Source: Strigamia acuminata
Taxonomy: Eukaryota > Arthropoda > Chilopoda > Geophilomorpha > Linotaeniidae
Assembly: GCA_949358305.1 (NCBI GenBank)
Contig: OX442316.1
Location: 12,834,001 to 12,898,000 of the forward strand
Direction of reading: 5' to 3'
DNA length: 64,000 nt
Part shown: positions 3,006 to 46,786 of the stretch, piece after piece
Position numbering within the stretch: position 1 is the stretch's first letter
Layout: each line of letters starts with the position of its first letter
Program-made: the position numbers and the translations under genes
Notes under the pieces: generated by a model
Seen by the model: only the letters and a program-made list of their open reading frames with translations
What the model was told of the DNA's origin: nothing
Database searches by the model: none

Positions 3006-4043
3006 GGCAAGCGTTAATTCCACAGAAATTCTGTGGAAATAACCACATGTTATTTCCACAGAATTTCTGGGGAATTAACCACGTGTTATTTCCACAGAAT
3101 TTCTGTGGAAATATCTGTGTGTTATATCCACAGAATTTCTGTGTGTTATTTCTACAGAATTTCTGTGGAAATATCTGTGTGTTATTTCCACAGAATTTCT
3201 GTGTATTATTTCCACAGAATTTCTGTGGAAATATCTGTGTGTTATTTCCACAGAAATTCTAGAGAGATTATGTAAAAATTAAAAAATAAAAAAAAAAATT
3301 ATTTAACGAATTTAATAGATAGCACCTACACGATCTGCATACGTGCAGATTTTCTGTGGAATTTACATGGGTATTTCTGTGGAAATATCTGTAATTTCCA
3401 CAAAAAGCCTATGTAAATTCCGAATAAATATAATTACTTTTATCTATTTATTAAGAGTTAAATTTTTAGAAACTTTTATTTTAATTATTTTAAACTGATA
3501 ATCTGCAAAGTACGCTATTATAATTCAATTAGTGGCACTGGTTTCTTGCACCGATATTCACAATACCACATCCCTATTGGATGTTGTGCTCTGCACGTAT
3601 GCAGATCCTTTAGGTGCTACGCAGCCAAAGCTACGGCATTTGTCAATGATATATTTCTTAATGTATTAAATTCATTACAGTGTAAGCTCCGTAGACCGGA
3701 CAGGGAACTGGTCCCAGAAAGTTGTCCGAACTAAAAGGCTGTCCGGATGGGAGAGGGGATTTAGTATTGCTGGGTATAGGTTGGGACCAAATCAGGACCT
3801 CCAAACTGTCCGGTCCACACAGCTATCCGGACGGTGCTATGTCCGGTTTACAGAGCTTACACTGTAAATAAAAGTTTTTTTAATTTTTTCATCATCTCTA
3901 TAGAATTTCTGTGGAAATAACATACAGATACTCGGCATTTACACAGAAATTCTGTGGAAATAACCACGTGTTAATTCCACAGAAATTCTGTGGAAATAAC
4001 ACGTGGTTATTTCCACAGAATTTCTGTGGGTTTAACCACTCCG
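3006..4043. mobile_element. MULE-type MITE, copy 1
   Basis: This is a 1038-bp element with terminal inverted repeats of roughly 100 bp, built largely from the palindrome CCACAGAAATTCTGTGG. A second copy at 33379-34416 lies at a constant offset of 30373 with very few substitutions. Long TIRs and a 9-bp TSD are hallmarks of Mutator-like elements. The 9-bp repeats do not match across this copy: the left flank ends ATGTATATT and the right flank begins TTTATTTTA. Each matches the opposite flank of copy 2 instead (see findings). The element has no transposase. Confidence 0.85.
3678..3864. mobile_element. Nested TA-insertion MITE (pogo/Tigger-like) inside the MULE copy
   Basis: A 187-bp palindromic element runs from CAGTGTAAGCTC to GAGCTTACACTG and is flanked by TA on both sides (3676-3677 and 3865-3866). 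TA target duplication and CAGT-type ends suit the Tc1/mariner/pogo superfamily. The same insertion sits at 34051-34237 in the second MULE copy, so it predates the duplication of the host MITE. Confidence 0.75.
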
Positions 4044-7000
4044 TTTATTTTAAGCCTTCCACGTCTATTTTAGAAGGAGTTCCATTAGAAGATGATGTAG
4101 GCCAAAATTATATTTCAGTTGTGGCTTATGGAGAAGGTATATACGTAATTATATATATTTTTAGTTGCGTTTCTAGTGGTTGAAATTATTTTTTTCGTAT
4201 AAAATTTAATGGCTTTAGTTTACGATTAGCTTAACCTTGTAAAAATCACGTGATAATTTGTTTCATTATTTCCTTGAAACCATAATTGTTTTTGTCGCAG
4301 TAAAGTGACGTTAATTATTTAGTTATTTTAATATTTAATATTATAAAAAAAATAAATGGTTTGTTTAATTCGTTTAGCAAATGACACTGCCAATGATGTC
4401 TTTTTTATCGATGTTTTACCCGCTAATCACGAATCTAAAATTCCCACTCGGTCACTGACGACCGAAGATAATCATCATTGCCAGAGGAGTGACTCCTCGT
4501 GGAGGCTAGTTATTGTAAGTTGTTGTGACTAGCTGAAGTCGCTCAATGATAAACGCGTGGCTTCAGCCATGTTGGATAACATCACAAGTGATTTATTGAG
4601 CACCGTCACGTGGCGCCCTCTACAGGCACAACTCACATCTCCCCTTTTTTACAAGACAAGATATGAATTACAATTTTAAAGCACAGGTTACACTTGAACT
4701 GAATAAACAAACTGGTTATATAAAAAATGCAAAAATGAGTATTACAAATAGAATTATACTGAGTATTATACTGATTAAACGACACACAGAAATATTATAA
4801 AGTTCACATGTCCGTAATTTGCTTCGGCTTCACCACACGGCCACTTCTCGTCACGTATCCTGGAACTGGTTGCCCGACGACCTTGGCTACAGGATCTTTT
4901 GCAGTCTCGGTTCTTGTCGTTGTATTGGCAACTGACCCACTCTGTGATTGATCCGTGCGTGTTGCTTCCGCTGGACTGGTTCGGATGACAGGAATCGGAT
5001 TTGCTGGTAAGTCTGCCTGCGTCTTCCTAATCACCGAACTGTTTCGTCTCAAAACTCTGCCATCTTTCATCTCGACCTCGAATGATCTTGGGTATTTGGT
5101 TTTTTCTTTAATGGTTGCTCCTTCCCACTGGCGATGTCCGGTCCGAACTCGTACCTCCATTCCCGGCTCCAATGGTTCCGCTACTTGTGCGGACTTATCG
5201 GCATACAACTTCTGCTTTCTTCGTTCCTCCTCCAAATTTTTGGAAACGTCCTTGCGTAGTTCTGGCTTCAGTAATGCTGTAGTGTCCAGCAGTAATGACC
5301 TCGTCCTACGGCTAAACAGTCTCTGGGCTGGCGATCCCAACTCTTCGCTCCGCGGCGTATTCCTCCAGTTCAGCAATGCCGCATAAATGTCCGTTCCATC
5401 CTTTTCGCAACGTTTGATCATCGTCTTCGCGGACTGCACCGCGCGTTCAGCCAATCCGTTTGCCCTCGGAAAATGTGGCGACGAAATCTCCTGCGAAAAC
5501 TCCCAGGCGGACGCAAAATTTTTGAATTCACGAGACGTAAATTGCGGTCCCCCATCACTCTCGACAATCTTTGGGCTTCCATGACATGCAAACCAACGTT
5601 TCAACTTCTCAATTACACCTCTGGCGGTGGTATCACGTAACTGGCTCACCTCATAAAATCCCGAATAACTGTCTGTGGCTACGATAAACTGTCGGCCTTT
5701 AATTTCGAATAAGTCTGTTGCAACACGTTGCCACGGCAATTGTGGAACTGGCTTTGACATTATTGGTTCCTTTACATTTGCTCGTTGTGTGCTTTCACAA
5801 ACGGCACACGATTTTACGTACGCTTCAATGTCTGCACTCATTCCTAACCAGAAAACTGCCTCACGAGCCCGGCGAATCGCTGACTGGACCCCCAAATGCC
5901 CCATGTGAATGCACTTCAAATAATGCGCTCGCAGTTGTTCCGGAATGATTGGACGGCTATTTTTGAATACAATCCCGCCATAGATTGACAATTCGTCGCG
6001 AAAATTCCAGTATTTACGGATATGGGCCGGAACACTGTCATTCGTCTCTGGCCAACCCTCCATGACCACTTGACTCAACGCCTGAAATTCCGCATCATCA
6101 CGAACCGCTGCCTTCAATTTGTCGGTTGCAGAGTTTGTCATCGGCAATACGATATGCACCTGCAAATCCTCGGGATCTTCCTTCACTGGTGCTGGTTGAC
6201 AATCTCGACTTAATGTGTCCGCCACTGGAATTTCCGTCCCCTTTTTATACGTGATAATTGGACTGTACGGCATCAACTCAAAGAATATCCGCTGCAACCT
6301 TGGCGGTACCCGATCCAACGGCTTCTTTGCAATCGCCTCCAACGGCTTATGATCCGTTTCCACGACAACTCGTTTCCCATACACGTAATCATGAAACTTT
6401 CGACACCCGAATCGAATCGCAAACGCCTCCTTTTCTATTTGAGGGTAGCGTTGTTGGCATGGCGTCAACGCTTGAGTTGCGTAACAAATTGGTCGGCCAT
6501 CCTGAAACAACGCAGCCCCCACGGCGTGCGAACTTGCGTCTACTGATAAAACGACATCCTTGTTCACGTCATAATACGCGAGAACTGGCGACGTCTTTAG
6601 CGCTGCTTTAATTCGCATCACGGCTGTTTCTTGCACGTTCGTCCATTCCCAGGCTACATCCTTGGGTAATAATGTCCGAATCGGCTCCGTCATTGATGAG
6701 TAGTGCGGTAAAAATTCAGCCAAGTACACAGTCATGCCTAGAAACCGACGCAGCTCCTCTTTGTTCGTAGGAGATTTTATTCTGTCAATAGCTTCTACCT
6801 TCTCCGGATCGGGTTTTACTCCATCTTGGGTCAAAATGTGTCCCAAAAATTTGATCTCCGTCGCCTCGAAGATGCATTTGTCTTTATTCAGACGGAATCC
6901 CTTTTTATACAACCGGCGAAGAATCTGCTTGACTAGCTTCCGCAACTCTGCTAATGTCTCAGCGTACGCAATGATGTCGTCGATTGACACCTCCGTATCC

Positions 7001-10000
7001 GGAATTCCTTTTAATGCAGCTTCCATCATTGCTTGGAACACTTCCGGTGCCGATTTTATCCCAAACGGCAATCTAAGGAACCGATATCGTTCCCACGGCG
7101 TATTTACCACCAAATAGTTTGACGTACGCTTCGTCACACGGCTCTGCCAATACCCAAATCGCAAATCAAATTTGGCGAAATATTTCGCTTTCTTCAACTT
7201 TGGTTTTACTGACTCGAATGTGCGTAATGGGTAATGCCGTCGTTTCACGTACTGGTTTACATCCGTCAAATCAATGCAAAGTCTAATTTTCTTCCCACGC
7301 TGCACTACCACTAACGGACTGACCGCTGGTGTCGGCTCGGTTACTGGCTCGATCACACCCTTCTTCACCATGTCGTCCAGCTCCGCTTTCACCCGGTTTT
7401 GCAATACGTGCGGAATTGTGCGTGGCGGAAAAATTTTAAACGGCGCCTGCTCGTCAATGTCAATATCATACACGAAATCCTTGGCGCAGCCTAACCCTGT
7501 GAAAATGTTTTTCATTATCTCATCATCGGTGACTTCCGGTTCCAAGGCATTAATTCGCTGTATCAACTTCAATTGCGCGCACGTTTTTCGCCCAAATAAT
7601 GCTGGTACGTCTTCCTCCACCACTTGAAATTCTACTGGCGCTTTACCACGACTCAATGCACATTCTAATGTTATTGCACCCACCACCTTCATGTGGTGTC
7701 CCGTGTACGACCGCAACCGACGCGTTGGTGACTCCGTCACCTTTACACCCAGTTTTCGTACTACAGATGCCGGTATTACATTACATCGTGCGCCAGAGTC
7801 CAACTTAATGTTAATTGAAACTTGGTTGTTAAGTTTCACCGTCTCAAACCAGTCGTCGTCATCATCTGTGTGCGACACGGTGATTCGATCAATCAGCAAT
7901 GTTGAATATAAATCCTCGCCTGATTCATCTTCTTCGGTGTCGACCATGTCGATGCCTTGCTTGGGTTTGGGTTTTTTCCATTTCTCCTTGCCCTCGGCCT
8001 GGCTGGCTCTACATACACTGGCAAAATGTCCTTTCTTTTTGCATTTGTTACATGCCTTATCATATGCTGGGCATTTCCCGAATTCGTGTGTACGACCACA
8101 CCGACCGCACGGCTTGGAAAATCCATCCGACGAATTTTTCGTGCTCCGTCCGGGCTTTTTATTCGCTCTGACAAAATCCACTTTTGATTCACCTGAATTT
8201 TTCATAGCTTTCACTTGCTTTTCTGCTGCTTCAGACGACCGTGCAAGCTGTATCGCCTTTTCTAGCGTCAAACCGGCCTCTTCTAATAACCGTTGTCGCA
8301 ATGTTTCACTTCTCACGCCAACCACGATTATGTCCCGCAACATTCCATCTGCTAACGCCTGGAAACCACACTTTGCCATTTTTGTTTGGGCCTCGGTGAC
8401 AAACTCATCTATCGATTGTCCCTCCGCTTGGCGTAGCGTCAAAAATTCATATCTCGCGAAACTCTCGTTCACTGTAGGCGCGAATTTATCCGTGAATTTT
8501 TTCTTCACCAAAGTCAAGTTCTTTTTCTCATCAGCTGTTAACTCAAAAGTTTTAAAAATCTTCCTCGCTTCTGGACCGATGGCACTCATCATTAATCCAA
8601 CTTGTACTGTAGCCGTCTGGGTCTCGGTTTGTGCCGCCACGGCATACCATTCGTAGGAGTCTAGCCATTCCTCCCATACTGCCGCCATATTGTCTGGTTG
8701 TATTAAGGTGCGCGCCATAAGTATAGAATAATCAGTTTTTTTGTAATATTTTTTTTCCCGCTTCATCTGGAATCATACCAATTTTTTTATACATGTATGT
8801 TGTCATTAGAATTCGTTTAGAATTAACACATTTATAATTTTTATGGAAAAATAAATTTGGCAGTAATTTTACACAAAAATGGGGGTGACATAAGTATAGA
8901 ATATTTTAGGTTTGATGCAAAAAAATGGATAAAATTAATATCACATAACATGCCTTTGTCTGATTAGTTAATCAGTGAATATGTCACCAATTTTCTGCCA
9001 TTTTGGAATTGTATTACTTGCTATTTTCTTATTTTGAAGCAATCCCTTGTGCAAAACTTGTAACCATTGTAGAAATCGCTGAAATATGGCAATTAAAGTC
9101 ACTGGGGCTCTCCAAACAGCAGATCCATAGAAGATCAGGAAGAAATTAATCAATTATGTCAAAAGTCCTAACCCAAAGATGAAAATCAAATATGGAAGCA
9201 AGACGGGGAGGACCAAAAGTGACCATGCAGCAAGTTCACAGGAATATTTTGTGCCTGGCACTGACTTTGCTGTTGTCTGCAAATGAAATTTGCACACATG
9301 CAGATGTAATTGTGTCTTTACAAACAATTCAGAGCAGACTAAACAATTGTGATCACCTTTGTTATCAAAAAATAGCTGTACAACTGTGGTTAACTGAACC
9401 CCTTAAATTGAAGTGCTCTGATTAGACTAATACCAAGCTGCCCTGGACCAAATCATGAAACTGAGTGCTTTTTACAGACAAAATACAGTTCAACTTAGAT
9501 GGTCTGGATGGTTAGTGTAATAAGTGGCAAGATTTAAGGAGAGAAGAGAAGTTTTCTCAGTGGGCAGAATCATGTGATGGTTTGGGTGACATTCGGGCAA
9601 AAATTACAGGCAAACATCATAATAATAAAAGGATGGAAAGATTCACAGAAGTATAAGGAAGTGTTGAACATGCATTTATTGCCATTTGGATGGAAAATTA
9701 AGACAATAAATGGGTGTTTCAGCTAGACAATGCTCACTGCATGGTCACTTTTGGTCTTTCCTGTCTGCTTTAACATTTGGATTTCATGTTTTTGTTAGAA
9801 TTTTTGATGCAATTGACTAATTTCTTTCAATTTCTTCCTAATATTCTATCAATTTGTTGTTTGGCAAGCCCCAGTGCCTTTAATCGCTTTACTTCAGCGA
9901 TTTCCACCGTGGTTGCAAGTTTTGTACAAGGGATTGCTTCAAAATAAGAAAATAGCAAGTAATACAATTCAAAAATGGCAGAAAATTGATGACATATTCA

Positions 10001-13000
10001 CTGATTAACTAATCAGACAAAGGCATGTTATGTGATATTAATTTTATCCATTTTTTTGCATCAAACCTAAAATATTCTATACTTATGTCACCCCCATTTT
10101 TGTGTAAAATCACTGCCAAATTTATTTTTCCATAAAAATTATAAATGTGTTAATTTTAAACGAATTCTAATGACTACATACATGTATAAAAAAATGGGTA
10201 TGATTCCAGATGAAGCGGGAAAAAAAATATTACAAAAAAACTGATTATTCTATACTTATGGCGCGCACCTTACTAGAGGCTTTGGTGGGCGCGCACCACT
10301 CGATCCCTTTGGCTGGTTTGCAACTGGATCTGCCATCACACTGTGGTATTGAGTCACTGGACGTGTGTATTTGTCCCTGACACTCTAATAATTCACTCAC
10401 ACTTGAAAGTTCTTTTATCCTGACACCATGTAAGTTGTTGTGACTAGCTGAAGTCGCTCAATGATAAACGCGTGGCTTCAGCCATGTTGGATAACATCAC
10501 AAGTGATTTATTGAGCACCGTCACGTGGCGCCCTCTACAGGCACAACTCACAGTTATTAGCATCGACAGTAACATATCAACGCTGCCCAGTTCAAATCGA
10601 TGTGAATTGATACTGAAAACATCCGAGTATCTAAACGCACCTCAGGTAATTGAATTGTAATTGTAATTGTTGCAAATGTGCTCTCGATTAAAACGTGCGT
10701 TCGATTTCAGGACGAGCTTCAAGTGTTAACACGAAGCGATCGTAATAGTCTGGACGATTCTGCCATTCGAGCCGGACCAGGAAATGCCAAACTACATCAA
10801 ACAGCAAATGCAGTTATCGTATGGAAAATCGCATGCCAAATTTTAACTCCCAGCATAGAAGAAGCGATAACGAAATTGGAATCCGACGCTCGCAACGGTG
10901 CTTTATCGCAGGTTGTCGGAGTGCCCGTAATCGGCTGGCATTTGACCAAGCATTTGCTTACGCAGTCGTTGAGAGTTAAGCGCCAGCTCCGGTCTGATTA
11001 TTCAACTCCTGTGCCGGCTCTTATACCGACAAAGCCAGCTATTCCTCATTTTTGGGACACCGACGACGACAATCGGTTCGAAGAATCATTTGACGAGAGT
11101 GAAGTGCAGCCTCCGATGCGCTCCATTCCCACCATGGCATCGCCGACCTTCCTCGAAGCCAGCACGTATCCGTCTCATCATCCCCAACACCACGAGCAAC
11201 ATCAACGAACCAAAACAAGAGGCCGTCACATGCACGTTCACGACATGACGACTTATCCTCACTCGCGAGGTCACGATAGAAACACTTATTACAGAAAGGA
11301 GAGCCGTTATTATCAGACACCAGTGCCCACACCCGATTTGCACCATACGACAGTCTTTCTGGAACCGAGTCGAGTTTTTCCCGACGAAATTCCGAGCGAA
11401 CCAACCGACTGGAAACCCTTCCACACGTCTACACCGGTTTTACACCAGCCTCTTTTTACTCCAGATTTAGTTCATCCGTCGGTGGAGGAAGGAACGTCGA
11501 CGTTAGAGCCGACCGAGTTCCACAACATGGGTCCGGTTGTTCGCAACCGAATTCAAAAAAGATCTATCGTCGCTGGAAAATACTTTGAATTCCATATTCC
11601 CGAAGACACCTTTTACGACCGCGAACAGAAATACACGCCCAATCTTGAGCTGCGCTTCCTAACTGACGAGGGGAAAGAAATCGCCGACGATTTTTGGATG
11701 CAGTTCGACGCCAAACGACAAATGCTTTATGGTCTGCCGGCTAAAAACTTTATCAATCATTGGGAGTTCCTTTTGGAGGCCGTTGATAAACACGGCGAAA
11801 TTGCTCGGGAGGCGATAGAAATTAACGTGGAACAACACGCCATGGACCTCGCGGTGAATCACGAATTTGTGTTGGAAGTCGAGTACGACAAATCAGCCTT
11901 TCCGATGATTCTGGATCGAAACGTGCAATTGCTGACTCGTTTGCGCAAGGTTTTTGGCGAAGTGGGCAGTCTAAACGAGTCCGCCATGATGGTGCTATCT
12001 TCCAGCATGGGAACATTTTCCTGGACTAACGACACGCTCGTAGAGAGGAGCGGTTGTCCAATCAAGGAGATCGAGCGACTGCGTAATATCCTCGTTAGGA
12101 AGGACAAGGAGCATCAGAGGTCTCGTCTGGAGCAAGCGCTCGGGCCCGATTTCAGAGTTGGAAACGTGCAGCCACTCGTTTCTATCAGGTGGTACAGCCA
12201 TTGCAAGCACCACGTGACCACGACGCCTCCCCACGTTACTCGTATAAACACAGCACCGCGAGTGCCCAATCCCATCGACATGGTCAATGCAACCGAAGGG
12301 CAGTTTTTTCAGTACAAAATTAAGGACGACACGTTCTTCGACGAGGAGCAAGGCGATACCAGATCTTTGCATCTGGAATTGCGAAGGGGCGGATCGGTGA
12401 TATTCACGTGGACCAACACGACCCTCTCGCAGAAAGCGTGCCCCAAACAATCTATTATCGCGTTGCTCTCTTATTTGATGACGGAAGAAGGCCTCGTCGC
12501 GAGCAATTTGACGGAGGCGATGAGGCCGGAGTTCAACGTGACGAAGGCAATTGCCACTCCGTACGGCGTTTGCATGAATTACATCACGCCCACGTCGGGC
12601 GTGCTCATCACCACAACGGAGAAGCCACGGCAAGCGACAAGTGATGACGATATCTACATTTCGACCATAGTTCCTGCCCTGGTGATTGCGGCCATGTTAA
12701 TCGTGGCTGCGATCGTCGCGTGTATTCTGTACAGGAAGAAGCGCAAGGGGAAGATGACGATGGAAGACAGCAGCACTTTTGTGAAGCGAGGCGCGCCGGT
12801 GATTTTCACGCACGAATTGGAAGAGAAACCGGATTCGGCTAAACATCCCATGATTATGAAGAAGGAGAAGCCGCCATTGCCTCCACCCGAATACCCACTC
12901 CGCCCTTACACGGACATGATCACTCGCGCAGTGCCAGGCATTCCAAGTCGCCATACCATCGCTCTCGTCAGACACCAACGCTGGAACAGCAGCAAGCACA

Positions 13001-13124
13001 ACCTCCCGAGAGTTCGCCGCTGTATCAGCCGCCGCCGCCTGTCACTGCCGATCGGGATAATCGTATGCATTGGCCCAAACATGCACTCACTTATCGCATG
13101 CCACCTCCTTATGTGCCTCCGTAA
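4044..13124 (+). CDS. DAG1: Dystroglycan, C-terminal portion (two transposon-broken exons and a frameshifted tail)
   Basis: Dystroglycan is a cell-surface laminin receptor that links matrix to dystrophin. Coding pieces are 4044-4136, 4378-4513 joined to 10553-10645 (one exon split by a retrotransposon), and 10711-13124. They encode the end of the first cadherin-like domain (SILEGVPLEDDVGQNYISV), the GPGNAK/VGWH region, a mucin-like stretch, a second cadherin-like domain (YFEFHIPEDTFYD) and a SEA-like region. A truncated repeat of that module follows, with a GGSVIFTW cleavage-type site. Then come a transmembrane helix (about 12655-12735), the basic RKKRKGK stop, and the FVKRGAPVIF and PPLPPPEYP motifs. 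The dystrophin-binding tail MPPPYVPP-stop (13098-13124) lies in another frame, so about 1 nt is missing between roughly 12890 and 12965. The 5' exons are displaced to 33142-33378. Family identity is certain; whether this copy is functional is doubtful. Confidence 0.92.
4514..4637 (-). repeat. 3' LTR of the gypsy element
   Basis: This 124-bp direct repeat matches 10429-10552. On the plus strand its outer edge reads TGTAAGTTG, which contains a consensus splice donor. Near the inner end it has CCCTCTACAG, a splice-acceptor-like sequence. Confidence 0.93.
4804..8766 (-). CDS. Gag-Pol polyprotein of the gypsy-type retrotransposon
   Basis: One uninterrupted 1320-codon frame. Order: gag capsid-like region; CCHC-type zinc knuckles near residues 218-250; aspartic protease with DSGA near 322; reverse transcriptase about 450-650; RNase H with the TDHKPLE motif near 803; integrase with an HHCC zinc domain near 950-990 and a DD-E core near 1013, 1066 and 1103; and a proline/threonine-rich C-terminus. 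Domain order RT-RNase H-integrase defines the Ty3/gypsy class. The RT active-site motif reads SIDD where family members usually have Y-x-D-D, so polymerase activity may be lost. The first 16 codons (to Met at 8718) lie within the terminal repeat of an inserted Tc1-like element, so the native Gag start was probably Met at 8688 or further upstream. No env gene is present. Confidence 0.96.
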   Translation of the reverse strand: MKREKKYYKKTDYSILMARTLIQPDNMAAVWEEWLDSYEWYAVAAQTETQTATVQVGLMMSAIGPEARKIFKTFELTADEKKNLTLVKKKFTDKFAPTVNESFARYEFLTLRQAEGQSIDEFVTEAQTKMAKCGFQALADGMLRDIIVVGVRSETLRQRLLEEAGLTLEKAIQLARSSEAAEKQVKAMKNSGESKVDFVRANKKPGRSTKNSSDGFSKPCGRCGRTHEFGKCPAYDKACNKCKKKGHFASVCRASQAEGKEKWKKPKPKQGIDMVDTEEDESGEDLYSTLLIDRITVSHTDDDDDWFETVKLNNQVSINIKLDSGARCNVIPASVVRKLGVKVTESPTRRLRSYTGHHMKVVGAITLECALSRGKAPVEFQVVEEDVPALFGRKTCAQLKLIQRINALEPEVTDDEIMKNIFTGLGCAKDFVYDIDIDEQAPFKIFPPRTIPHVLQNRVKAELDDMVKKGVIEPVTEPTPAVSPLVVVQRGKKIRLCIDLTDVNQYVKRRHYPLRTFESVKPKLKKAKYFAKFDLRFGYWQSRVTKRTSNYLVVNTPWERYRFLRLPFGIKSAPEVFQAMMEAALKGIPDTEVSIDDIIAYAETLAELRKLVKQILRRLYKKGFRLNKDKCIFEATEIKFLGHILTQDGVKPDPEKVEAIDRIKSPTNKEELRRFLGMTVYLAEFLPHYSSMTEPIRTLLPKDVAWEWTNVQETAVMRIKAALKTSPVLAYYDVNKDVVLSVDASSHAVGAALFQDGRPICYATQALTPCQQRYPQIEKEAFAIRFGCRKFHDYVYGKRVVVETDHKPLEAIAKKPLDRVPPRLQRIFFELMPYSPIITYKKGTEIPVADTLSRDCQPAPVKEDPEDLQVHIVLPMTNSATDKLKAAVRDDAEFQALSQVVMEGWPETNDSVPAHIRKYWNFRDELSIYGGIVFKNSRPIIPEQLRAHYLKCIHMGHLGVQSAIRRAREAVFWLGMSADIEAYVKSCAVCESTQRANVKEPIMSKPVPQLPWQRVATDLFEIKGRQFIVATDSYSGFYEVSQLRDTTARGVIEKLKRWFACHGSPKIVESDGGPQFTSREFKNFASAWEFSQEISSPHFPRANGLAERAVQSAKTMIKRCEKDGTDIYAALLNWRNTPRSEELGSPAQRLFSRRTRSLLLDTTALLKPELRKDVSKNLEEERRKQKLYADKSAQVAEPLEPGMEVRVRTGHRQWEGATIKEKTKYPRSFEVEMKDGRVLRRNSSVIRKTQADLPANPIPVIRTSPAEATRTDQSQSGSVANTTTRTETAKDPVAKVVGQPVPGYVTRSGRVVKPKQITDM
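8706..10270. mobile_element. Tc1/mariner-like fold-back transposon nested in the retrotransposon leader
   Basis: This 1565-bp insertion is flanked by TA dinucleotides (8704-8705 and 10271-10272). Its outer ends are AGGTGCGCGCCATAAG and the complement. The inverted arms are very long (about 8706-9230 against 9738-10270). The roughly 500-bp centre shows decayed Tc1-type transposase similarity on the plus strand, including a FNLDGLDG-like stretch near 9490 and a FQLDNAHC-like stretch near 9720, interrupted by stops. It separates the retrotransposon 5' LTR and primer site from gag. Confidence 0.8.
10429..10552 (-). repeat. 5' LTR of the gypsy element
   Basis: The second copy of the 124-bp LTR. 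Its plus-strand right end reads CCCTCTACAG then GCACAACTCACA, directly followed by the TSD GTTAT. The reading frame from 10541 onward joins dystroglycan in frame without a stop. Confidence 0.93.
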
Positions 13125-17000: not shown

Positions 17001-17076
17001 TTTGCCTCAAATTTCTTGTTTGTAATTAATTTTTAATACTATTTTATTTTACATTAATTTTTTTATTTTGATTTAG

Positions 17077-23574: not shown

Positions 23575-24146
23575 TTATAATGAATTTTTTCGATTTTTTT
23601 CAATAATCATTTTGTCATGTTTTTGAGCATTCTTACACTGTTTGAACCCGATATAGCACGATTTTAAACTGTTTACACTTGGTATAGCACGATTTTATTC
23701 TTTTACATGAGTTTACACGTTTTTATAATAATTTAATAAAAAATTCTTGAAAAGTTTTGAAATACCTTTAACAATAGTTTCTCATTATTTTAAAGTAAAC
23801 TTTTTCAAAGTTAAACCAAAAAAAAATATTAAAAGTAAAAACATCATACCGGTATGCGGTATTTGTTAATTTGTGATGCAGTGAAGCATCTAGTGTTACC
23901 TGACAGCTGTCGTCTGACAACGTAAAACGTGTATTAATAGGGATAAACTCTGTTAAATCGTGTAATAATAGGAATAAACTCTGTTAAATCGTGTAATAAT
24001 AGGGCTCAGTCTATGTAGAATCCGTTTAATACCATGTTTAATCTGCGTAAAAACACGAAAAAATGATTAAAATCGAAAAAATTTTAAAATTTTAAAATTT
24101 TAAATTTTAAAAAAATTTATTCAACCGAAACTCCCCAGCCTGATTA

Positions 24147-24712
24147 GAATTACAAGAAAAATTGTGATTTTTGCGAGAAAATTGTGATTTTTGCGAGAAA
24201 ATTGTGATTTTTGCGAGAAAATTGTGATTTTTGCGAGAAAATTGTGATTTTTACGAGAAAAATAGGGAATTTTACGAGAAAAATAGGGATTTTTACGAGA
24301 AAAATAGGGATTTTTACGAGAAAAATAGGGATTTTTACGAGAAAAATAGGGATTTTTACGAGAAAAATTGTGATTTTTACGAGAAAAATAGGGAATTTTA
24401 CGAGAAAAATAGGGATTTTTACGAGAAAAATAGGGATTTTTACGAGAAAAATAAGGATTTTTACGTGAAAAATAGGGATTTTTAGGAGAAAAATAGGGAT
24501 TTTTACGAGAAAAATAGGGATTTTTACGAGAAAAATAGGGATTTTTACGAGAAAAGTAGGGATTTTTACGAGAAAAGTTGGGATTTTTACGAGAAAAATA
24601 GGGATTTTTACGAGAAAAATAGGGATTTTTACGAGAAAAGTAGGGATTTTTACGAGAAATTTGGGATTTTTACAAGAAAAGTTGGGATTTTTACGAGAAT
24701 AATTTGGGTGGT
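24147..24712. repeat. 21-bp minisatellite
   Basis: About 27 tandem units of the form TTTTACGAGAAAAATAGGGAT, preceded by 20-bp variants (gcgagaaaattgtgattttt). The array grows out of the tail of the third copy of the 20.4-kb duplicated unit, at the point where the other copies read gattagaattgcaa. All frames are long and open by composition; I do not regard them as genes. Confidence 0.92.
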
Positions 24713-24719
24713 ATATTTA

Positions 24720-26010
24720 GTAATATCTTCAGCATTTTGAGGTGGGAAATGCTTATTTGAAACAAAATTTAAGATTGTAAAAGATTCCAAAATTGACTAT
24801 TTACAAGCAGAATAATTTAAGGAATTATAAAATTTTTTTTTTAAACAGAAAGCAGACCACGTTGAAAATAAATCGGGCGCCATTTTTAGAAATTTGATTT
24901 TGAGCCATCCACAACTTCATAATGGGAAATGAAGTCCCTAGATGTTCAAATACACATTGGTTAGTACATTTTCCAAATATAACAATATTTTAGGAAATAA
25001 TTTAATGAATCAGCAATATTTTTATATTTTTGAAAAGCACAGTAATAGATGCCTGAATTCAAACGTGGCAGTTGGGGTTAGTAATAATAATAATAATAAT
25101 AATATCAAGTTCATAATATCCTAGTCTTGATAGGGAAGGTCATGGACGTGCGGAGAAGTGGCTTGGTTCTGAGCCAACCACAGCGACCGCAGGTAAGAAT
25201 CAGATTGCATTGTGGGAAGTAGAACAGTATGTAGTCTGGCAACCATTGGGTGGTATATTTAGAATTAATCTTCAGCCATCTACTCGGTTTGAGGTGGGAA
25301 TTTGAGTTTCTTTATCTAAATTACATTTAAGATTGTAAATGTTCCAGAATTGTTGAAAAACAGCGACATAATTAACCATTTTTGGCATTTTTAGTTTTTT
25401 TTCTAACAGAAGGCGGACTAAGGTGGAATCAAATTTCCCGCCATTATTAACAACTCAATCCTCACCTTAATGAGGAATAAAGTTTCCTGAGCTTCAAAAT
25501 GTCGATTGGTAAGTGCACTTTTCAAATTTATCAATATTTTAGGAAATTCCATAATGAATTTTGGCATTTTTAATTTTTAATTTTCAAGAAACTTAGTAAT
25601 TCAAACAAATGGCGGCTGAGTGTGTTCATCAGCACACACACTTGGGTGAATAAATTTCGCTTCAAATTAAATGTGAAATAAAATAAGATAGGCTTATGAA
25701 TACTAAAATTGCAAAAGAAATTTATTTTTTCTACAGATTTGAGGCGTCTTTTATTTATGTAGAGTTCCTGCACGGCCATACTTGTTTTTAATTTGACATT
25801 AATAAATTATTGGTTTATTTATTTTTATTTTTTTCTCTTTCCAGTGGTATTCCGATTCGTTACCCAGAAGTAACGTAACTACTGGTTGTAAGTCCGATCG
25901 TAATACGGGAAATAAGAACGAGACTGCATTGTAGGAAGAAGAGCAGCGAAACGTGACGGCCTAGAACAGCAGCAACCATTGGCAACCAATTTGGTAAATT
26001 GAGAAAAATT
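24720..26010 (-). repeat. Degenerate copies of the 1-3 kb interspersed repeat family
   Basis: At least two reverse-orientation copies (about 24720-25020 and 25130-25620), plus a fragment at about 25890-26000, carry the cagattgcattgtggg, gcagcaaccattgg and gaggtgggaatttgag blocks. No open frame of interest is seen. Confidence 0.65.
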
Positions 26011-26046
26011 TCGTGAATACGAATTAAGCAATACTTGTTGATTACT

Positions 26047-26740
26047 AAAATTTTAAAAGAAATTTAATTATTTTTTCTACAGGCTCAATGTAATGATGGA
26101 AGGAATGCAGAAATGCTTTCAATTGAATTTTTATATAGATGGTTTGTAGTTGGAGCATGGAATGTTTTCAAGTGCGCGTCACGATTTTGTCTTTTTGCAG
26201 GTTGATGCAATATTTCAGAAGTTTATTTTTCATACTGGCTTAATGTTATATCATGCCTACGTAAAAAAAAACAATTAGGACACGAAATGTTATTTGCATG
26301 GCATTATGTCGGTGTATGTTTTGCCATTAATAAGTTGTTTTTGTTTGTTTGTTATTTTTTTTCTTTTTTCAGGGAAATTAATTGCTGCCGTTTGGAGACC
26401 GATTTGTGTATGTAACGTCTTTGTAAGAATGTCGGCAAAAATATCAAGAATAAAGGTTTTACATGTCTTTGATCGAATTCGTGTCTCCAGGTGACGATCT
26501 GGAAACACGAACTCAATGCGATGATCGAATTGGTGCCTCCAGGTGATGATCTGGAGACACGAATTCGATGCGCAATATGCAAAGAAGCGCATGAATCCAA
26601 TGATCGACCGCTTGCTGCCTGTTCCGTGGATTTTGGCCTTCCTGACGACAGTTGCAGATTTCTAAAAGTAATTTGTTAAATGTTTATTTTTATTTGTTTC
26701 TTTCGACAGCAATGGATGGAACCCACAAATTGCAAGTAAA
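26047..26740 (+). other. Unassigned exon-like stretches, cysteine-containing
   Basis: Several segments have acceptor-like 5' edges (tttctacag, tttgcag, ttttttcag, gtctccag). The most protein-like runs from about 26484 to 26668 and encodes a stretch with RCAICKEAHESNDRPLAAC, ending before a possible donor; a short piece at 26711-26738 could follow. Part of it contains an internal repeat of the ctccaggtgaygatctggaracacgaa block. I do not recognise the family. It could be exons of an unknown gene or a decayed element. Confidence 0.3.
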
Positions 26741-27427
26741 GATGTTTTTTACATTTTGGCATAGAGTCTGGGAGGAAGTTGGTCCTAAGATTAAAGGCGC
26801 TTCCAGGGAAGTTGGTCCTAAAGTAAAAGGCGCTTCCGCTTGCCAAACTTACACGTGTGGCGTGCACGGTCAAGTGATTTTCACGGGTATCAGCAATCGA
26901 ACTCAAACGAGGGACATGCTGTGAATGGAAGTAATGGAAGTAAACCCAAATGGAAGTAATGGAAGTAAATCCAAATGGAAGTAATGGGAAGTAAATCCAA
27001 ATGGAAGTAATGGGAAGTAAACCCAAATGGAAGTAATGGAAGTAAACCCAAATGGAAGTAATGGGAAGTAAATCCAAATGGAAGTAATGGGAAGTAAACC
27101 CAAATGGAAGTAATGGAAGTAAACCCAAATGGAAGTAATGGGAAGTAAATCCAAATGGAAGTAATGGGAAGTAAATCCAAATGGAAGTAATTGGAAGTAA
27201 ACCCAAATGGAAGTAATGGAAGTAAACCCAAATGGAAGTAATGGAAAGTAAACCCAAATGGAAGTAATGGGAAGTAAACCCAAATGGAAGTAATGGGAAG
27301 TAAATCCAAATGGAAGTAATGGGAAGTAAACCCAAATGGAAGTAATGGAAGTAAACCCAAATGGAAGTAATGGAAGTAAACCCAAATGGAAGTAATGGGA
27401 AGTAAACCCAAATGGAAGTAATGGAAG

Positions 27428-27520
27428 TACCATACTGCCTCATTTAAACGCTGAACCCCCGGCGTTTATTCGGGCCCGGCGTTTGAATGAACCCGGGCGT
27501 TTAAATGAGGCAGTACGGTA
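27428..27520. mobile_element. Short palindromic MITE in the minisatellite (copy 1)
   Basis: A GC-rich insert of about 93 bp with inverted ends TACCATACTGCCTCATTTAA and its near-complement interrupts the array. An identical-looking copy lies about 375 bp downstream at 27803-27895, so the insert was amplified together with the array units. The inner part (ggcgtttattcgggcccggcg) is itself partly self-complementary. Confidence 0.75.
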
Positions 27521-27802
27521 AACCCAAATGGAAGTAATGGGAAGTAAACCCAAATGGAAGTAATGGGAAGTAAACCAAAATGGAAGTAATGGGAAGTAAA
27601 TCCAAATGGAAGTAATGGGAAGTAAACCCAAATGGAAGTAATGGGAAGTAAACCCAAATGGAAGTAATGGGAAGTAAATCCAAATGGAAGTAATGGGAAG
27701 TAAATCCAAATGGAAGTGATTGGAAGTAAACCCAAATGGAAGTAATGGAAGTAAACCCAAATGGAAGTAATGGGAAGTAAACCCAAATGGAAGTAATGGA
27801 AG

Positions 27803-27895
27803 TACCATACTGCCTCATTTAAACGCTGAACCCCCGGCGTTTATTCGGGCCCGGCGTTTGAATGAACCCGGGCGTTTAAATGAGGCAGTACGGTA
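27803..27895. mobile_element. Short palindromic MITE in the minisatellite (copy 2)
   Basis: This is the second copy of the insert at 27428-27520. It lies in the same position relative to neighbouring array units, which indicates block duplication rather than independent insertion. Confidence 0.75.
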
Positions 27896-30509
27896 AACCC
27901 AAATGGAAGTAATGGGAAGTAAACCCAAATGGAAGTAATGGGAAGTAAATCCAAATGGAAGTAATGGGAAGTAAATCCAAATGGAAGTAATGGGAAGTAA
28001 ACCCAAATGGAAGTAATGGAAGTAAACCCAAATGGAAGTAATGGGAAGTAAATCCAAATGGAAGTAATGGGAAGTAAATCCAAATGGAAGTGATTGGAAG
28101 TAAACCCAAATGGAAGTAATGGAAGTAAACCCAAATGGAAGTAATGGAAAGTAAACCCAAATGGAAGTAATGGGAAGTAAACCCAAATGGAAGTAATGGG
28201 AAGTAAATCCAAATGGAAGTAATGGGAAGTAAACCCAAATGGAAGTAATGGAAGTAAACCCAAATGGAAGTAATGGAAGTAAACCCAAATGGAAGTAATG
28301 GGAAGTAAACCCAAATGGAAGTAATGGAAGTAAACCCAAATGGAAGTAATGGAAGTAAACCCAAATGGAAGTAATGGGAAGTAAACCCAAATGAAAGTAA
28401 TGGGAAGTAAACCCAAATGGAAGTAATGGGAAGTAAACCCAAATGTAAGTAATGGGAAGTAAACCTAAATGTAAGTAATGGGAAGTAAACCCAAATGGAA
28501 GTAATGGGAAGTAAACCCAAATGGAAGTAATGGGAAGTAAATCCAAATGGAAGTAATGGGAAGTAAACCCAAATGGAAGTAATGGAAAGTAAACCCAAAT
28601 GGAAGTAATGTGAAGTAAACCCAAATGGAAGTAATGGGAAGTAAACCCAAATGGAAGTAATGGGAAGTAAACCCAAATGGAAGTAATGGGAAGTAAACCC
28701 AAATGGAAGTAATGGGAAGTAAACCCAAATGGAAGTAATGGGAAGTAAACCCAAATGGAAGTAATGGGAAGTAAACCCAAATGGAAGTAATGGGAAGTAA
28801 ATCCAAATGGAAATAATGGGAAGTAAACCCAAATAGAAGTAATGGAAGTAAACCCAAATGGAAGTAATGGAAGTAAACCCAAATGGAAGTAATGGAAAGT
28901 AAACCCAAATGGAAGTAATGGGAAGTAAACCCAAATGGAAGTAATGGGAAGTAAATCCAAATGGAAGTAATGGGAAGTAAACCCAAATGGAAGTAATGGA
29001 AGTAAACCCAAATGGAAGTAATGGAAGTAAACCCAAATGGAAGTAATGGGAAGTAAACCCAAATGGAAGTAATGGAAGTAAACCCAAATGGAAGTAATGG
29101 AAGTAAACCCAAATGGAAGTAATGGGAAGTAAACCCAAATGAAAGTAATGGGAAGTAAACCCAAATGGAAGTAATGGGAAGTAAACCCAAATGTAAGTAA
29201 TGGGAAGTAAACCTAAATGTAAGTAATGGGAAGTAAACCCAAATGGAAGTAATGGGAAGTAAACCCAAATGGAAGTAATGGGAAGTAAATCCAAATGGAA
29301 GTAATGGGAAGTAAACCCAAATGGAAGTAATGGAAAGTAAACCCAAATGGAAGTAATGTGAAGTAAACCCAAATGGAAGTAATGGGAAGTAAACCCAAAT
29401 GGAAGTAATGGGAAGTAAACCCAAATGGAAGTAATGGGAAGTAAACCCAAATGGAAGTAATGGGAAGTAAACCCAAATGGAAGTAATGGGAAGTAAACCC
29501 AAATGGAAGTAATGGGAAGTAAACCCAAATGGAAGTAATGGGAAGTAAATCCAAATGGAAATAATGGGAAGTAAACCCAAATAGAAGTAATGGAAGTAAA
29601 CCCAAATGGAAGTAATGGAAGTAAACCCAAATGGAAGTAATGGAAAGTAAACCCAAATGGAAGTAATGGGAAGTAAACCCAAATGGAAGTAATGGGAAGT
29701 AAATCCAAATGGAAGTAATGGGAAGTAAACCCAAATGGAAGTAATGGAAGTAAACCCAAATGGAAGTAATGGAAGTAAACCCAAATGGAAGTAATGGGAA
29801 GTAAACCCAAATGGAAGTAATGGAAGTAAACCCAAATGGAAGTAATGGAAGTAAACCCAAATGGAAGTAATGGGAAGTAAACCCAAATGAAAGTAATGGG
29901 AAGTAAACCCAAATGGAAGTAATGGGAAGTAAACCCAAATGTAAGTAATGGGAAGTAAACCTAAATGTAAGTAATGGGAAGTAAACCCAAATGGAAGTAA
30001 TGGGAAGTAAACCCAAATGGAAGTAATGGGAAGTAAATCCAAATGGAAGTAATGGGAAGTAAACCCAAATGGAAGTAATGGAAAGTAAACCCAAATGGAA
30101 GTAATGTGAAGTAAACCCAAATGGAAGTAATGGGAAGTAAACCCAAATGGAAGTAATGGGAAGTAAACCCAAATGGAAGTAATGGGAAGTAAACCCAAAT
30201 GGAAGTAATGGGAAGTAAACCCAAATGGAAGTAATGGGAAGTAAACCCAAATGGAAGTAATGGGAAGTAAACCCAAATGGAAGTAATGGGAAGTAAACCC
30301 AAATGGAAGTAATGGGAAGTAAACCCAAATGGAAGTAATGGGAAGTAAACCCAAATGGAAGTAATGGGAAGTAAATCCAAATGGAAGTAATGGAAGGAAA
30401 AAGGATTTTACCACTACGCAGATTTCTACAGGTAATTTATTTAAATTAATGTTTTATTGTTGATTATTAATTTAATTTAATTTAATTTAATTTTGTTCTT
30501 GTGGAATTT

Positions 30510-30700
30510 AGGGTCGTCAATGAAGCAGTCAATGAAGCAGTGGATGTCGTCATCAATGAAGCAGTCAATGAAGCAGTGGATGTCGTCATCAATGAAGCAT
30601 CGGATGTCGTCATCAATGAAGCATCGGATGTCGTTATCAATGAAGCATCGGATGTCGTCATCAATGAAGCATCGGATGTCGTCATCAATGAAGCATTTGC
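30510..30700. repeat. 24-bp minisatellite
   Basis: About eight units of gtcgtcatcaatgaagcatcggat, with shorter variants at the left. A period divisible by three keeps frames open on both strands. It follows an acceptor-like tttag at about 30506-30510. No gene is assigned. Downstream, 30730-31600 is A-rich with no recognisable feature. Confidence 0.85.
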
Positions 30701-31639
30701 TGTTTTTTATTTTATTTGTTATATTTTACTTGTTTTGAGATTGTGTAATTTTCGTTTAAAAATTCTAGAGAAAATTGTACCACAGTTTGCAAAAATATGT
30801 GTAAAACAAAAGGATGATGAAAAATAACAAAATAAGAACAAGAAAAATGAATAACAAAATAAAAGCAACAAAAAAGAATAACAAAATAATAGCAACAAAA
30901 AAGAACAACATTAAAATAAAAGTTGGAGTTCTGCAATGGGTAATTTTAGATTAAAGCTAAATTTGGCCAAACCATAGACAAATGGATATTCGATTTAAAA
31001 ATTGATGGTTAATTAAATGTTTTTGAATAAATTGCTGTCATAGAAGTGAAATAAATGTATTTGAATCGGGATCATTGAATCACGAACACAATGTTCGTGG
31101 TTGAATTCATGTTCACAAAACAGAAGAAAAGAGCGGGAGAAGAAGCAAAGAATTTTTTAAAAAGAAGATGGAAATGCTTAAAGAGCTGAATAAAATATAA
31201 ACATAACGAGTTTATTTTGATTTTGCTTTTATTAATTTTGAACAAAAAATATTTCAATGATAATTGAAGAATACACAAACAATTTGTACAAATATTCCGC
31301 AACACACAAGCTGGCGAAACCAAAAATCGAGAGAATAGAGCAAAAATTTAATTTACAAAAAATTTGAATACAGTTAAAATAAAATCTCAAATGAGTTGCT
31401 CCAAATGTTCAAACATCGTTCTAAAAATTGTCCTTAATCTCTCGGCGAGTAAAAACGAAAACATTGTTTTTCGTAAATCGTCTGTGTTTGATGATAAGCA
31501 ATTTTTGGGCGGTATTCAATACGGTATTATTTCGCTCAGTCGTCTCTAGATGGCAGGAGCGAGCAGAGACAGTTTGCGGTTGGAAAACAGTGGCGCCATC
31601 TATGTTTTCAAGTTGCTATTAATTAGGAGTTGAAATTCC

Positions 31640-33166
31640 TCTGACTTGTGAGCTTGTGAGTGGTGATTATGCTTTGGAAAAAACCCGATTTATCGCCCAT
31701 GAAAGCAATGCAATACGGTATTGTTATATCAATGCTCGGTTTCAACAGGTTTTGCACACCTGCTATAAATTGAATATGTTTTTTGGATTTATTGTACAGA
31801 TTGAAGCCAGTTTGGATCATGAGCGATAAATTCGGATACGTTTATTGGATTTGCACAGTATAGTTTCAACAAGTTTTGCACGCTGGGCGATGAATTCGGA
31901 TATGTTTTAGTCGTCTATTTGACTCGCAGTTCAGTAGCACATAGGATGTGTTTTTTAGGTATTCGGAGCAATTTCAACTTGTGTTTGGGCGTGAGCGATA
32001 AATTCGGATTCGGATGCGTTTTTTGGTTTTACTGAGTAGTTTCAGCAAGTTTTGCACGGTGGGCGATAACTTCGTATGTGTTTTGTGATATTGCAGTAAA
32101 GTTTAGCATGGTAGGCGATAAATTCGGATACATTTATTAGTTTTGCTGTTTCGTTTCGGGGTTACTTTAGAATATGGCCCCCTTCGGAATGGGCCCAAAG
32201 TTTGGTTACATACAAAATAAAGCCTACTGAGTCCGAAAATGACACTCAAAAGTGTCGGAAATGAGGATAGGTTAGGTTAGGGATAGGTTAGGTTAAGGAT
32301 AGGTTAGGTTAAGAATAGGTTAGGTTAAGGATAGGTTAGGTTAAGGATAAGTTAGGTTAGATTAAGGATAGGTTAGGTTAGGTTTAGCACAATAGACAAT
32401 AAATTAATTTGTTTTTTGTGATTTTGTAGTGTAGTTTTGCATGGTGTGCGATTAATTCGGATGCTCTTTTGGATTTATTGTACGGATGGAAGCTAGTTTT
32501 CATCGTGTGCGATAAAATCGAATGCGTTTTTAGACTTTGTTGTTTAGTTTCAATCAGTTTTGCACTGCAGGCGATAAATTCGGATGTGTTTTGTGGATTT
32601 GCAGTGAAGTTTTGTACGGTAGGCGATAAAATCGGATGTGTTTTGCGAATTTGCAGTGTAGTTTTGTAAGATAGGCGATAAATTCGGATGTGTTTTGTGG
32701 ATTTGCAGTGAAGTTCCAACAAGTTTAGCACGGTCGGCGATAAATTCGGATGCTTTTTGGATTTATTTTATGAATTGAAGCTTGTTCTGTACCGTATGGC
32801 CGTTAAATTCGGATGCATTTTATAAATTTGCAGTTGAGTTTCAACAAGTTTTGCAACTTGGCTGATAAATTCGGATGCATTTTATGAATTTGCAGTTGAG
32901 TTTCAACAAGTTTTGCACGGTGGGCGATAAATTCGAATGCATTTTATGAATTTGCAGTTGAGTTTCAACAAGTTTTGCACGGTGGGCGATAAATTCGGAT
33001 GCATTTTATGAATTTGCAGTTGAGTTTCAACAAGTTTTGCACGGTGGGCGATAAATTCGGATGCATTTTATGAATTTGCAATTGAGTTTCAACAAGTTTC
33101 GCACGGTGGGCGATAAATGGGGATGCATTTTATGAATTTGCAGTTGAGTTTCAACAAGTTTTGCAC
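31640..33166. repeat. 62-bp satellite running into a dystroglycan exon
   Basis: Degenerate units of roughly 60-70 bp sharpen to an exact 62-bp period in the last five (starts near 32914, 32976, 33038 and 33100). The core is gatgcattttatgaatttgcag followed by ttgagtttcaacaagttttgcac. The final unit merges without a gap into dystroglycan coding sequence at 33167. Every late unit therefore carries a potential splice acceptor (tttgcag) and the same 25-nt exon-like start. Confidence 0.85.
32268..32387. repeat. TTAGG-like interstitial array
   Basis: About seven units of roughly 16 bp (GGATAGGTTAGGTTAA) are embedded in the 62-bp satellite. They contain the arthropod-type telomeric motif TTAGG twice per unit, separated by GATA. 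It is not a perfect telomere array, so it may be ordinary satellite or a degenerate internal telomeric tract. Confidence 0.6.
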
Positions 33167-33378
33167 GATGCCACTGTAGGACAGCTATTTCAGTATCATA
33201 TTCCCAGTGACGCGTTTCGCGGACATGTAATCAAGTATCAGGCGAGTGGAATCATTTTTATTTTTTTAAAAAAAATCAATAAATAAAAAAATAGCGGTGG
33301 TTTATTAAATTTTATATTGTTTTTTTTTACAGGTTGCAACTGCCGGGCACTCGGTTTTACCAACCTGGCTTTATTTTA
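33142..33378 (+). CDS. DAG1: Dystroglycan, 5' coding exons (displaced from the rest of the gene)
   Basis: Two exons encode the start of the first cadherin-like domain of alpha-dystroglycan. One ends at 33241 (coding at least from 33167, possibly from 33142 after tttgcag). The other is 33333-33378. They read DATVGQLFQYHIPSDAFRG, then VATAGHSVLPTWLYF. The intron between them begins GC (CAG then GCGAGT) and ends ACAG. The second exon stops abruptly at the MULE insertion. Its natural continuation (KPSTSILEGVPLEDD) is found not downstream but at 4044, 29 kb upstream. Signal-peptide exons were not found. Confidence 0.85.
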
Positions 33379-34416
33379 GGCAAGCGTTAATTCCACAGAA
33401 ATTCTGTGGAAATAACCACATGTTATTTCCACAGAATTTCTGGGGAATTAACCACGTGTTATTTCCACAGAATTTCTGTGGAAATATCTGTGTGTTATAT
33501 CCACAGAATTTCTGTGTGTTATTTCTACAGAATTTCTGTGGAAATATCTGTGTGTTATTTCCACAGAATTTCTGTGTATTATTTCCACAGAATTTCTGTG
33601 GAAATATCTGTGTGTTATTTCCACAGAAATTCTAGAGAGATTATGTAAAAATTAAAAAATAAAAAAAAAAATTATTTAACGAATTTAATAGATAGCACCT
33701 ACACGATCTGCATACGTGCAGATTTTCTGTGGAATTTACATGGGTATTTCTGTGGAAATATCTGTAATTTCCACAAAAAGCCTATGTAAATTCCGAATAA
33801 ATATAATTACTTTTATCTATTTATTAAGAGTTAAATTTTTAGAAACTTTTATTTTAATTATTTTAAACTGATAATCTGCAAAGTACGCTATTATAATTCA
33901 ATTAGTGGCACTGGTTTCTTGCACCGATATTCACAATACCACATCCCTATTGGATGTTGTGCTCTGCACGTATGCAGATCCTTTAGGTGCTACGCAGCCA
34001 AAGCTACGGCATTTGTCAATGATATATTTCTTAATGTATTAAATTCATTACAGTGTAAGCTCCGTAGACCGGACAGGGGACTGGTCCCAGAAAGTTGTCC
34101 GAACTAAAAGGCTGTCCGGATGGGAGAGGGGATTTAGTATTGCTGGGTATAGGTTGGGACCAAATCAAGACCTCCAAACTGTCCGGTCCACACAGCTATC
34201 CGGACGGTGCTATGTCCGGTTTACAGAGCTTACACTGTAAATAAAAGTTTTTTTAATTTTTTCATCATCTCTATAGAATTTCTGTGGAAATAACATACAG
34301 ATACTCGGCATTTACACAGAAATTCTGTGGAAATAACCACGTGTTAATTCCACAGAAATTCTGTGGAAATAACACGTGGTTATTTCCACAGAATTTCTGT
34401 GGGTTTAACCACTCCG
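33379..34416. mobile_element. MULE-type MITE, copy 2
   Basis: This copy is almost identical to 3006-4043, including the nested TA-flanked MITE (34051-34237). The left flank ends TTTATTTTA within the dystroglycan exon. The right flank begins ATGTATATT within the interspersed repeat family. These are the TSD partners of the opposite flanks of copy 1. Confidence 0.85.
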
Positions 34417-46766: not shown

Positions 46767-46786
46767 ACTTGCGACTTCTTAGAAAC

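Follow-up and report, generated by a model that had tools for sequence, protein, structure and literature searches.

Background

Composite insertions in maize display outer duplications and an internal junction, and some of them are reported, in the portions of the literature compared, to reinsert while the old copy stays in place (PMC4270019, PMC9910405). Ac/Ds elements generate target duplications of 8 bp, as given in one of these accounts (PMC4270019). Within the literature compared here, composite insertions have been described so far from maize Ac alleles.

Cointegrates display a defined duplication pattern, in which the inner ends both carry the donor duplication and the outer ends the target duplication. 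The Shapiro cointegrate of bacterial replicative transposons is depicted, in the account compared, with donor DNA enclosed by two element copies in direct orientation (PMC7780238). An SVA-flanked lcr16a duplication in hominines is described with crossed duplications and a permuted gene segment between direct element copies, the SVA elements being reciprocal chimeras of two older insertions or subfamilies, that is, products of recombination (PMC9132208). Human segmental duplications arising through circular DNA are described with a change of order from A-B to B-A (PMC7450558). Alternative transposition has also been proposed for VANDAL21 of Arabidopsis, a Mutator-type class II element, for which the portions compared present somatic, head-to-head copies and describe no germline composite insertion (PMC12312487).

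Crossed duplications around two E copies

The window, i.e. the whole stretch of 64,000 nucleotides of Strigamia acuminata that was analysed, contains at 3006-34416 what is very probably one composite transposon (macrotransposon or composite insertion), inserted as a unit. It consists of two direct copies of an element, here called E, around a segment of about 30 kb with truncated dystroglycan, MON1 and a repeat-rich block. Both E copies (3006-4043 and 33379-34416, plus strand) measured 1,038 bp and differed by 2 mismatches in a pairwise comparison, their likeness ending sharply at each element end. The left E displayed inverted terminal repeats of roughly 120 bp and a nested insert around E positions 673-859.

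Comparison of the flanks showed the 9-bp duplications to be crossed between the two copies, exactly as the initial annotation had claimed. The outer (target) duplication, ATGTATATT, formed the last bases left of E copy 1 (2997-3005, plus strand) and the first bases right of E copy 2 (34417-34425, plus strand). The inner (donor) duplication, TTTATTTTA, formed the last bases left of E copy 2 (33370-33378, plus strand) and the first bases right of E copy 1 (4044-4052, plus strand), where it lies within a dystroglycan exon. Full matches occurred in 25 of 200,000 random 9-mer pairs drawn from the AT-rich window; three different fully matching pairs were observed around E copies, two in the window and one on another contig (see below).

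The flanks were then joined in the alternative order. Joining the segment left of the right E (C) to that right of the left E (B) restored an uninterrupted exon, and such an exon is present at 10.036 Mb of contig C4, where C and B adjoin and TTTATTTTA occurs once within 200 bp on either side. Joining the two outermost flanks (A and D), with the duplication counted once, restored a paralogous repeat at 2151-2701 of the window, in a single alignment across the join (94% over 568 columns, 2 gap openings). Two proposals of the annotation were borne out: A-D is a real target site, represented in its pre-insertion state by this paralog, and TTTATTTTA records the insertion of E into a copy of dystroglycan.

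Captured host DNA and its source

Segment B (4044-4514, plus strand) comprises the second exon half followed by intron, and matched C4:10.03 Mb at 95.8% (gaps included); segment C (33170-33378, plus strand) comprises the first exon half and ends with TTTATTTTA. B is followed by an LTR-retrotransposon (4515-10551, minus strand), gypsy-like by reading of its open frame, which is absent from the second package described below and is outside the original unit. The next captured segment (10552-16443, plus strand), with the 3' part of dystroglycan and MON1, was collinear with C4:10.03 Mb. An open frame at 10654-13131 (plus strand) encodes dystroglycan domains (DAG1, E-value 1.8e-57; a_DG1_N2, E-value 8.3e-13) and carries a 336-bp deletion. 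MON1 exons were located at 14273-16041 (minus strand), with longin domains 1 and 3; a 20-bp deletion around 15252, not present in the second package, disrupts the frame of one of them.

Dystroglycan DNA, segment C included, was found at three places in the genome: the two packages and the source locus at C4:10.03 Mb, where the gene is uninterrupted, has its upstream first exon and contains no E. The search for a second dystroglycan locus, proposed with the annotation, was thereby positive. The annotation had regarded dystroglycan as circularly permuted, and this holds for the truncated extra copy between the E elements and not for the uninterrupted gene. Permutation of the whole gene was rejected because the package is devoid of exon 1 and an uninterrupted locus exists elsewhere.

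The repeat-rich segment G (16444-33169, plus strand) is one copy of a dispersed family, of which another copy lies beside MON1 at the source locus. It includes a piece 97% identical to C4:12,106,667-12,110,042 (17011-20395, plus strand) and a 26-bp minisatellite (26924-30400). At the internal junction (33169/33170) the repeat array of G passes into dystroglycan, with letters identical in both packages and another neighbour at the source locus. Identity between package and source was about 87% for G versus about 96-99% for the neighbouring gene segment. This argues against the source G as direct parent of the package G; the source locus in its present form was not simply the donor, a point that weighs against the composite-transposon reading.

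Four G loci were fetched on both sides for comparison of their ends. The left part started near window position 16.46-16.51 kb in three of the four (L071, L073 and L074); the fourth, L072, was more complex. The right ends stopped at varying points within the repeat arrays, as in further loci compared, and no common right terminus or duplication was observed. On this comparison G was rejected as a fixed-end transposon that made the circle, and was left unclassified.

A second package at an unrelated site

The same E-[B...C]-E package was also found on a second large contig, C3 (18,087,895-18,119,456, minus strand). TTTATTTTA again formed the inner flanks, whereas the outermost bases of this package formed a different 9-bp duplication, TAACAAATA; the outer duplications matched at 9/9 positions in each case (ATGTATATT on C4, TAACAAATA on C3). 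At both loci a target duplication surrounds an entire package of about 31 kb, with the donor duplication at the inner ends, and the E copies, in direct orientation, present complementary, outward-facing ends at both borders. Over 2 kb on the outer side, the flanks of the packages had nothing in common except a 33-bp repeat. A search for an empty paralog of the C3 target site found none, returning at full length its own two flanks alone, which counts against the composite-transposon reading.

Both packages had the internal junction and the 336-bp deletion, neither of which occurs at the source. The packages differed from each other at 67 of 15,633 compared columns; in a comparison of 6,208 columns they had 8 and 7 private substitutions. 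The C4 package alone had the 6-kb insertion, a 31-bp deletion and the 20-bp deletion. The initial annotation had raised an assembly misjoin through the 1-kb repeat, combined with another in the minisatellite. Nothing was found in favour of this explanation. The two loci have flanks and outer duplications of their own and have mutated independently, which contradicts a misjoin and makes it very unlikely, to the point of being scarcely credible. The structure looks more like a gene-carrying composite transposon than like a disrupted gene or a fault of the assembly.

The claim that an exchange of flanks between two independent insertions is required likewise found no support, since with a second locus bearing its own outer duplication, each locus can be explained by a single insertion of the complete package. 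As this package occurs at two sites whose flanks are unrelated, we infer that it has moved as a unit.

The E family

Mutator-like elements (MULEs) are characterised by target duplications of about 9 bp and long terminal inverted repeats. Among 11 two-ended solo relatives of E, 10 had the same element ends and were flanked by 9-bp repeats in which 8-9 of 9 positions matched; in the remaining one (L057), the flanks matched at 4/9 and there was no 9-bp repeat. The inverted repeats of E, roughly 120 bp long, matched at 2/7 positions over the outermost 7 bp and at 7/14 over the outermost 14. E is short and no coding sequence was seen in its copies. The genome search listed 118 matches to PF10551 (MULE domain), and inspection of the lists placed no listed E end within 10 kb of any of them. 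This distance, the poor match of the outermost 7 bp and the one relative devoid of a 9-bp repeat weigh against the composite-transposon reading. The transposase for E was probably supplied in trans by a Mutator-like element.

The four package E copies displayed 7 events in 8 columns, each private to one copy, including 6 substitutions in 4 x ~1,038 bp. On these counts the age of the E copies would be similar to that of the package split. The two insertions could not be ordered by E variants because all 7 events were private.

The annotation had favoured the integration of a circle into a pre-existing A-E-D site. Extended to both loci, this model requires two separate recombination events of a circle of about 30 kb carrying C-E-B, one with a solo E already present at A-D and one with a solo E at the C3 site. 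Such recombination yields the same crossed duplications, and the hominine SVA/lcr16a case, as far as described in the portions compared, has this layout (PMC9132208). However, it presupposes two additional solo insertions of the nested E form, both consumed without trace, whereas the nested insert was absent from all 15 solo loci examined and no solo E of the nested form was found (40 of 333 candidates scored; end-pattern searches), which lowers this model. In contrast to the reciprocal chimeras of the hominine case, no E variant was common to any two copies, but differences so few are compatible with chimeras. On balance, recombination with a circle appears improbable.

Proposed origin and movement

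TTTATTTTA, present at each inner end of the composite transposon, suggests that both flanking E copies go back to one insertion. E would have inserted once into a dystroglycan copy. This one E may then have undergone replicative or alternative transposition, taking its flanking DNA along; the two flanks would have been joined to each other at 33169/33170, with E being doubled in the process. The E-unit-E would subsequently have been inserted whole by the E transposition machinery, acting on the left end of the left E and the right end of the right E, to give the present copies on C3 and C4. That E was doubled by this re-replication route comes close to an even chance.

Another possible explanation, plausible if somewhat less than probable, is that the starting form was a circle or a tandem dimer carrying a single E in each unit. 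The unit would then have been inserted, without re-replicated chromosomal flanks, either by a pair of E ends lying a unit's length apart (macrotransposition) or by one E acting replicatively (a true cointegrate). The unit is inserted here as in the composite transposon, the difference residing solely in how E was doubled. This accounts equally well for the permutation and the inner duplications, and the internal junction common to both packages is in its favour; against it, no tandem copy or further donor copy was found in the assembly. More tentatively, the packages may represent a natural eukaryotic cointegrate, in which a short MULE-like E on an extrachromosomal circle or re-replicated donor would have inserted its whole carrier replicatively at two sites.

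Comparison with described systems and significance

With maize Ac composite insertions and macrotransposons, in the portions of the reports compared, the package shares element ends at the borders, a target duplication outside, donor flanks and a repaired junction inside, and probable reinsertion as a unit with the old copy kept (PMC4270019, PMC9910405). It departs from what these portions describe by a duplication of 9 bp instead of 8 bp (both packages and 10 of 11 solo relatives), by the same 9-bp repeat at both inner ends, by the shortness and apparent lack of coding capacity of E, and by existing as standing assembly copies instead of new stock alleles. It displays the cointegrate pattern, with TTTATTTTA inside and ATGTATATT or TAACAAATA outside, and resembles the bacterial cointegrate in its donor DNA between direct element copies; unlike the latter, it resides in a eukaryotic genome with introns and is known from assembled sequence, with no donor seen in the assembly. 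The hominine duplication shares the crossed duplications and the permuted segment; the package differs from it by its four nearly uniform E copies and by occurring at a further locus, where a duplication of its own is present. The change of order is that of human duplications through circular DNA, and VANDAL21 shares the proposal of alternative transposition for a Mutator-type element, unlike the package in its somatic, head-to-head copies.

Literature searches returned, among the matches listed, no published report of a composite insertion of a Mutator-like or MITE element. Here the anatomy of a composite insertion is seen in a genome assembly; it is built on a short element other than Ac, TTTATTTTA is retained at each inner end, and the target duplication outside differs between the two loci. 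This constitutes a readable signature, the same element at both ends and an inner duplication unlike the outer one, by which assemblies can be scanned for transposase-made segmental duplications that would otherwise be taken for misassemblies or recombination. If the cointegrate reading is true, a MITE-type element of 1 kb would be able to move 30 kb of host genes, including MON1.

A second copy of the package

The two direct copies of element E (3006-4043 and 33379-34416, 1,038 bp each) differed at two positions, with identity being lost at both ends, and the crossed arrangement of the four 9-bp flanks around them, as described in the initial annotation, was confirmed. The sequence obtained by joining the outer flanks A and D aligned with the neighbouring repeat across the joining point (94% over 568 columns, two gap openings), and joining of the inner flanks, C to B, yielded a dystroglycan exon that is uninterrupted elsewhere in the genome.

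This layout had been attributed either to recombination between independent insertions or to an assembly misjoin. Most of the question was settled by a second locus on C3, another large contig. A search of the whole 237.5-Mb assembly, in which the window occupies C4:12,834,001-12,898,000, returned four full-length E matches (best 40 of 333 candidates scored), two in the window and two on the minus strand of C3, again about 30.5 kb apart. The order on C3 was identical: E, TTTATTTTA with the B half of the exon, the same interior, the C half ending in TTTATTTTA, and a right E of 1,036 bp. This package (C3:18,087,895-18,119,456, minus strand) measured 31,562 bp, versus 31,411 bp for that of C4 (3006-34416). 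Its outermost flanks were unlike those of C4, the left E being preceded by ...TAACAAATA and the right E followed by TAACAAATA..., and a 33-bp repeat was the only sequence common to the 2-kb flanks of both packages. A wider comparison of the 64-kb window with 70 kb of C3 (E-value <= 1e-10) gave four rows with the query outside the C4 package (75-132 bp each, all matching inside the C3 package) and three rows of 46-64 bp with the query inside the C4 package and the subject outside the C3 package.

The packages differed at 67 of 15,633 compared columns (0.43%; eight non-tandem stretches, tandem arrays and gaps excluded). Only that of C4 carried 31-bp and 20-bp deletions, a 112-bp insertion and a 6-kb LTR retrotransposon (4515-10551, minus strand), gypsy-like by our own reading, whose 124-bp terminal repeats are identical and which has a single long open frame. 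A twin with other outer flanks, this divergence and the C4-only indels speak against a misjoin, which would hardly create two such diverged packages.

About 760 bp to the right of the package, an open frame (35176-36096, minus strand) whose matches to C2H2-type zinc fingers fall below Pfam cut-offs gives the impression of being part of a transposon-derived protein. It is followed by a rhodopsin-family receptor gene (45888-46775, minus strand; PF00001, E=7.1e-42) and by several short frames (59543-63910, plus strand), which we take to resemble repeated ankyrin-type exons.

Solo relatives and nature of element E

Genome-wide searches with the end patterns of E (up to two mismatches) located the start of the element at 22 sites and its end at 32. 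As genome DNA searches score the best candidates only, the absence of further full-length E rests also on these patterns. Outside the packages lay 18 of the start sites; 13 of these were fetched, along with two end-only sites. Both ends were present at 11 of these 15 loci and a single end at four. The two-ended loci were 45-796 bp long and 10 of them had 9-bp flanking repeats (8 or 9 of 9 matching), the exception being the 45-bp locus L057, whose flanks match at 4/9; E thus produces 9-bp duplications. Two loci with identical flanks, L060 and L061, may represent a single insertion that was duplicated.

These duplications and inverted repeats of about 120 bp fit a MULE-like element. This identity is unproved, because the outermost bases of the inverted repeats are unmatched and no link was found between E and the 118 MULE-domain matches in the genome. 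A nested insert (approximately E 673-859) was present in all four package copies of E and in none of the 15 solo loci. The nested element, of about 187 bp (3678-3864 and 34051-34237), is apparently TA-flanked and has dozens of relatives in the genome.

Origin of the package interior

Besides the two packages, dystroglycan DNA was found at one further place, C4:10.03 Mb, the source locus. There C and B are contiguous, with one TTTATTTTA at their join and no E. Upstream of C, the source continues into a sequence that both packages lack and that, by our own reading, is a first exon including a start codon and a signal peptide. Across dystroglycan and MON1, the package was collinear with the source up to position 16,443, at about 96-99% identity. 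MON1 sequence (14273-16041, minus strand) was present in both packages besides the source copy. The C3 copy had exon frames as at the source; in that of C4, a 20-bp deletion at about 15252 disrupts one exon frame, and the 112-bp insertion, a palindrome, lies upstream of the probable start codon.

The remaining segment, G (16,444-33,169), belongs to a dispersed, tandem-repeat-rich family with at least 256 matches in one search and at least 74 in another, both among part-scored candidates. A member of this family also follows the collinear stretch downstream at the source, with only about 87% identity to the package G (86-89% in longer pieces) despite neighbours at about 96-99%. Over one 3.4-kb piece, the package G matches C4:12.107-12.110 Mb at 97% identity. 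It also includes minisatellites, a (TTAGG)-like array (32264-32384) and, on the far right, a 62-bp array. Right ends varied within the family; the comparison of borders covered both sides of four loci and, in fragments, the right side of eight more (L046-L053).

The G array gives way to dystroglycan at 33,169/33,170, whereas the upstream neighbour of C at the source is dystroglycan. The identical letters of this junction in both packages, together with a 336-bp dystroglycan deletion common to them, show that both descend from a single rearranged ancestor.

Formation and timing

One insertion of E into a dystroglycan copy accounts for the inner duplications, and insertion of the whole unit, once per locus, for the outer ones. 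In between, the single E would have been doubled, with its two flanks enclosed between the copies in swapped order. In maize, alternative transposition with re-replication is reported to produce an element-flank-junction-flank-element structure with target duplications, which can reinsert later as a macrotransposon, the old copy staying in place (PMC4270019, PMC9910405). The same product is expected from a circle-derived cointegrate, or if two ends are chosen from a dimer, tandem or circular, and the sequence does not separate these three routes.

Recombination with pre-existing solo copies of E, close to the reading of the initial annotation, deserves respect because a crossed layout of this kind is documented in hominines, where the flanking elements are reciprocal chimeras (PMC9132208). 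The package copies of E differ in this respect, chimeras not being in evidence among them, with few differences to judge by. Recombination would moreover require two separate solo E of the nested form, seen nowhere else, at exactly both target sites.

The four package copies of E had seven private events in all and no shared one. In 6,208 columns of the dystroglycan-MON1 segment, eight substitutions were private to C4 and seven to C3, versus 64 common to both packages relative to the source. By these counts, E was probably doubled at about the time when the two packages separated, and both events probably came later than the divergence from the source allele or paralog.
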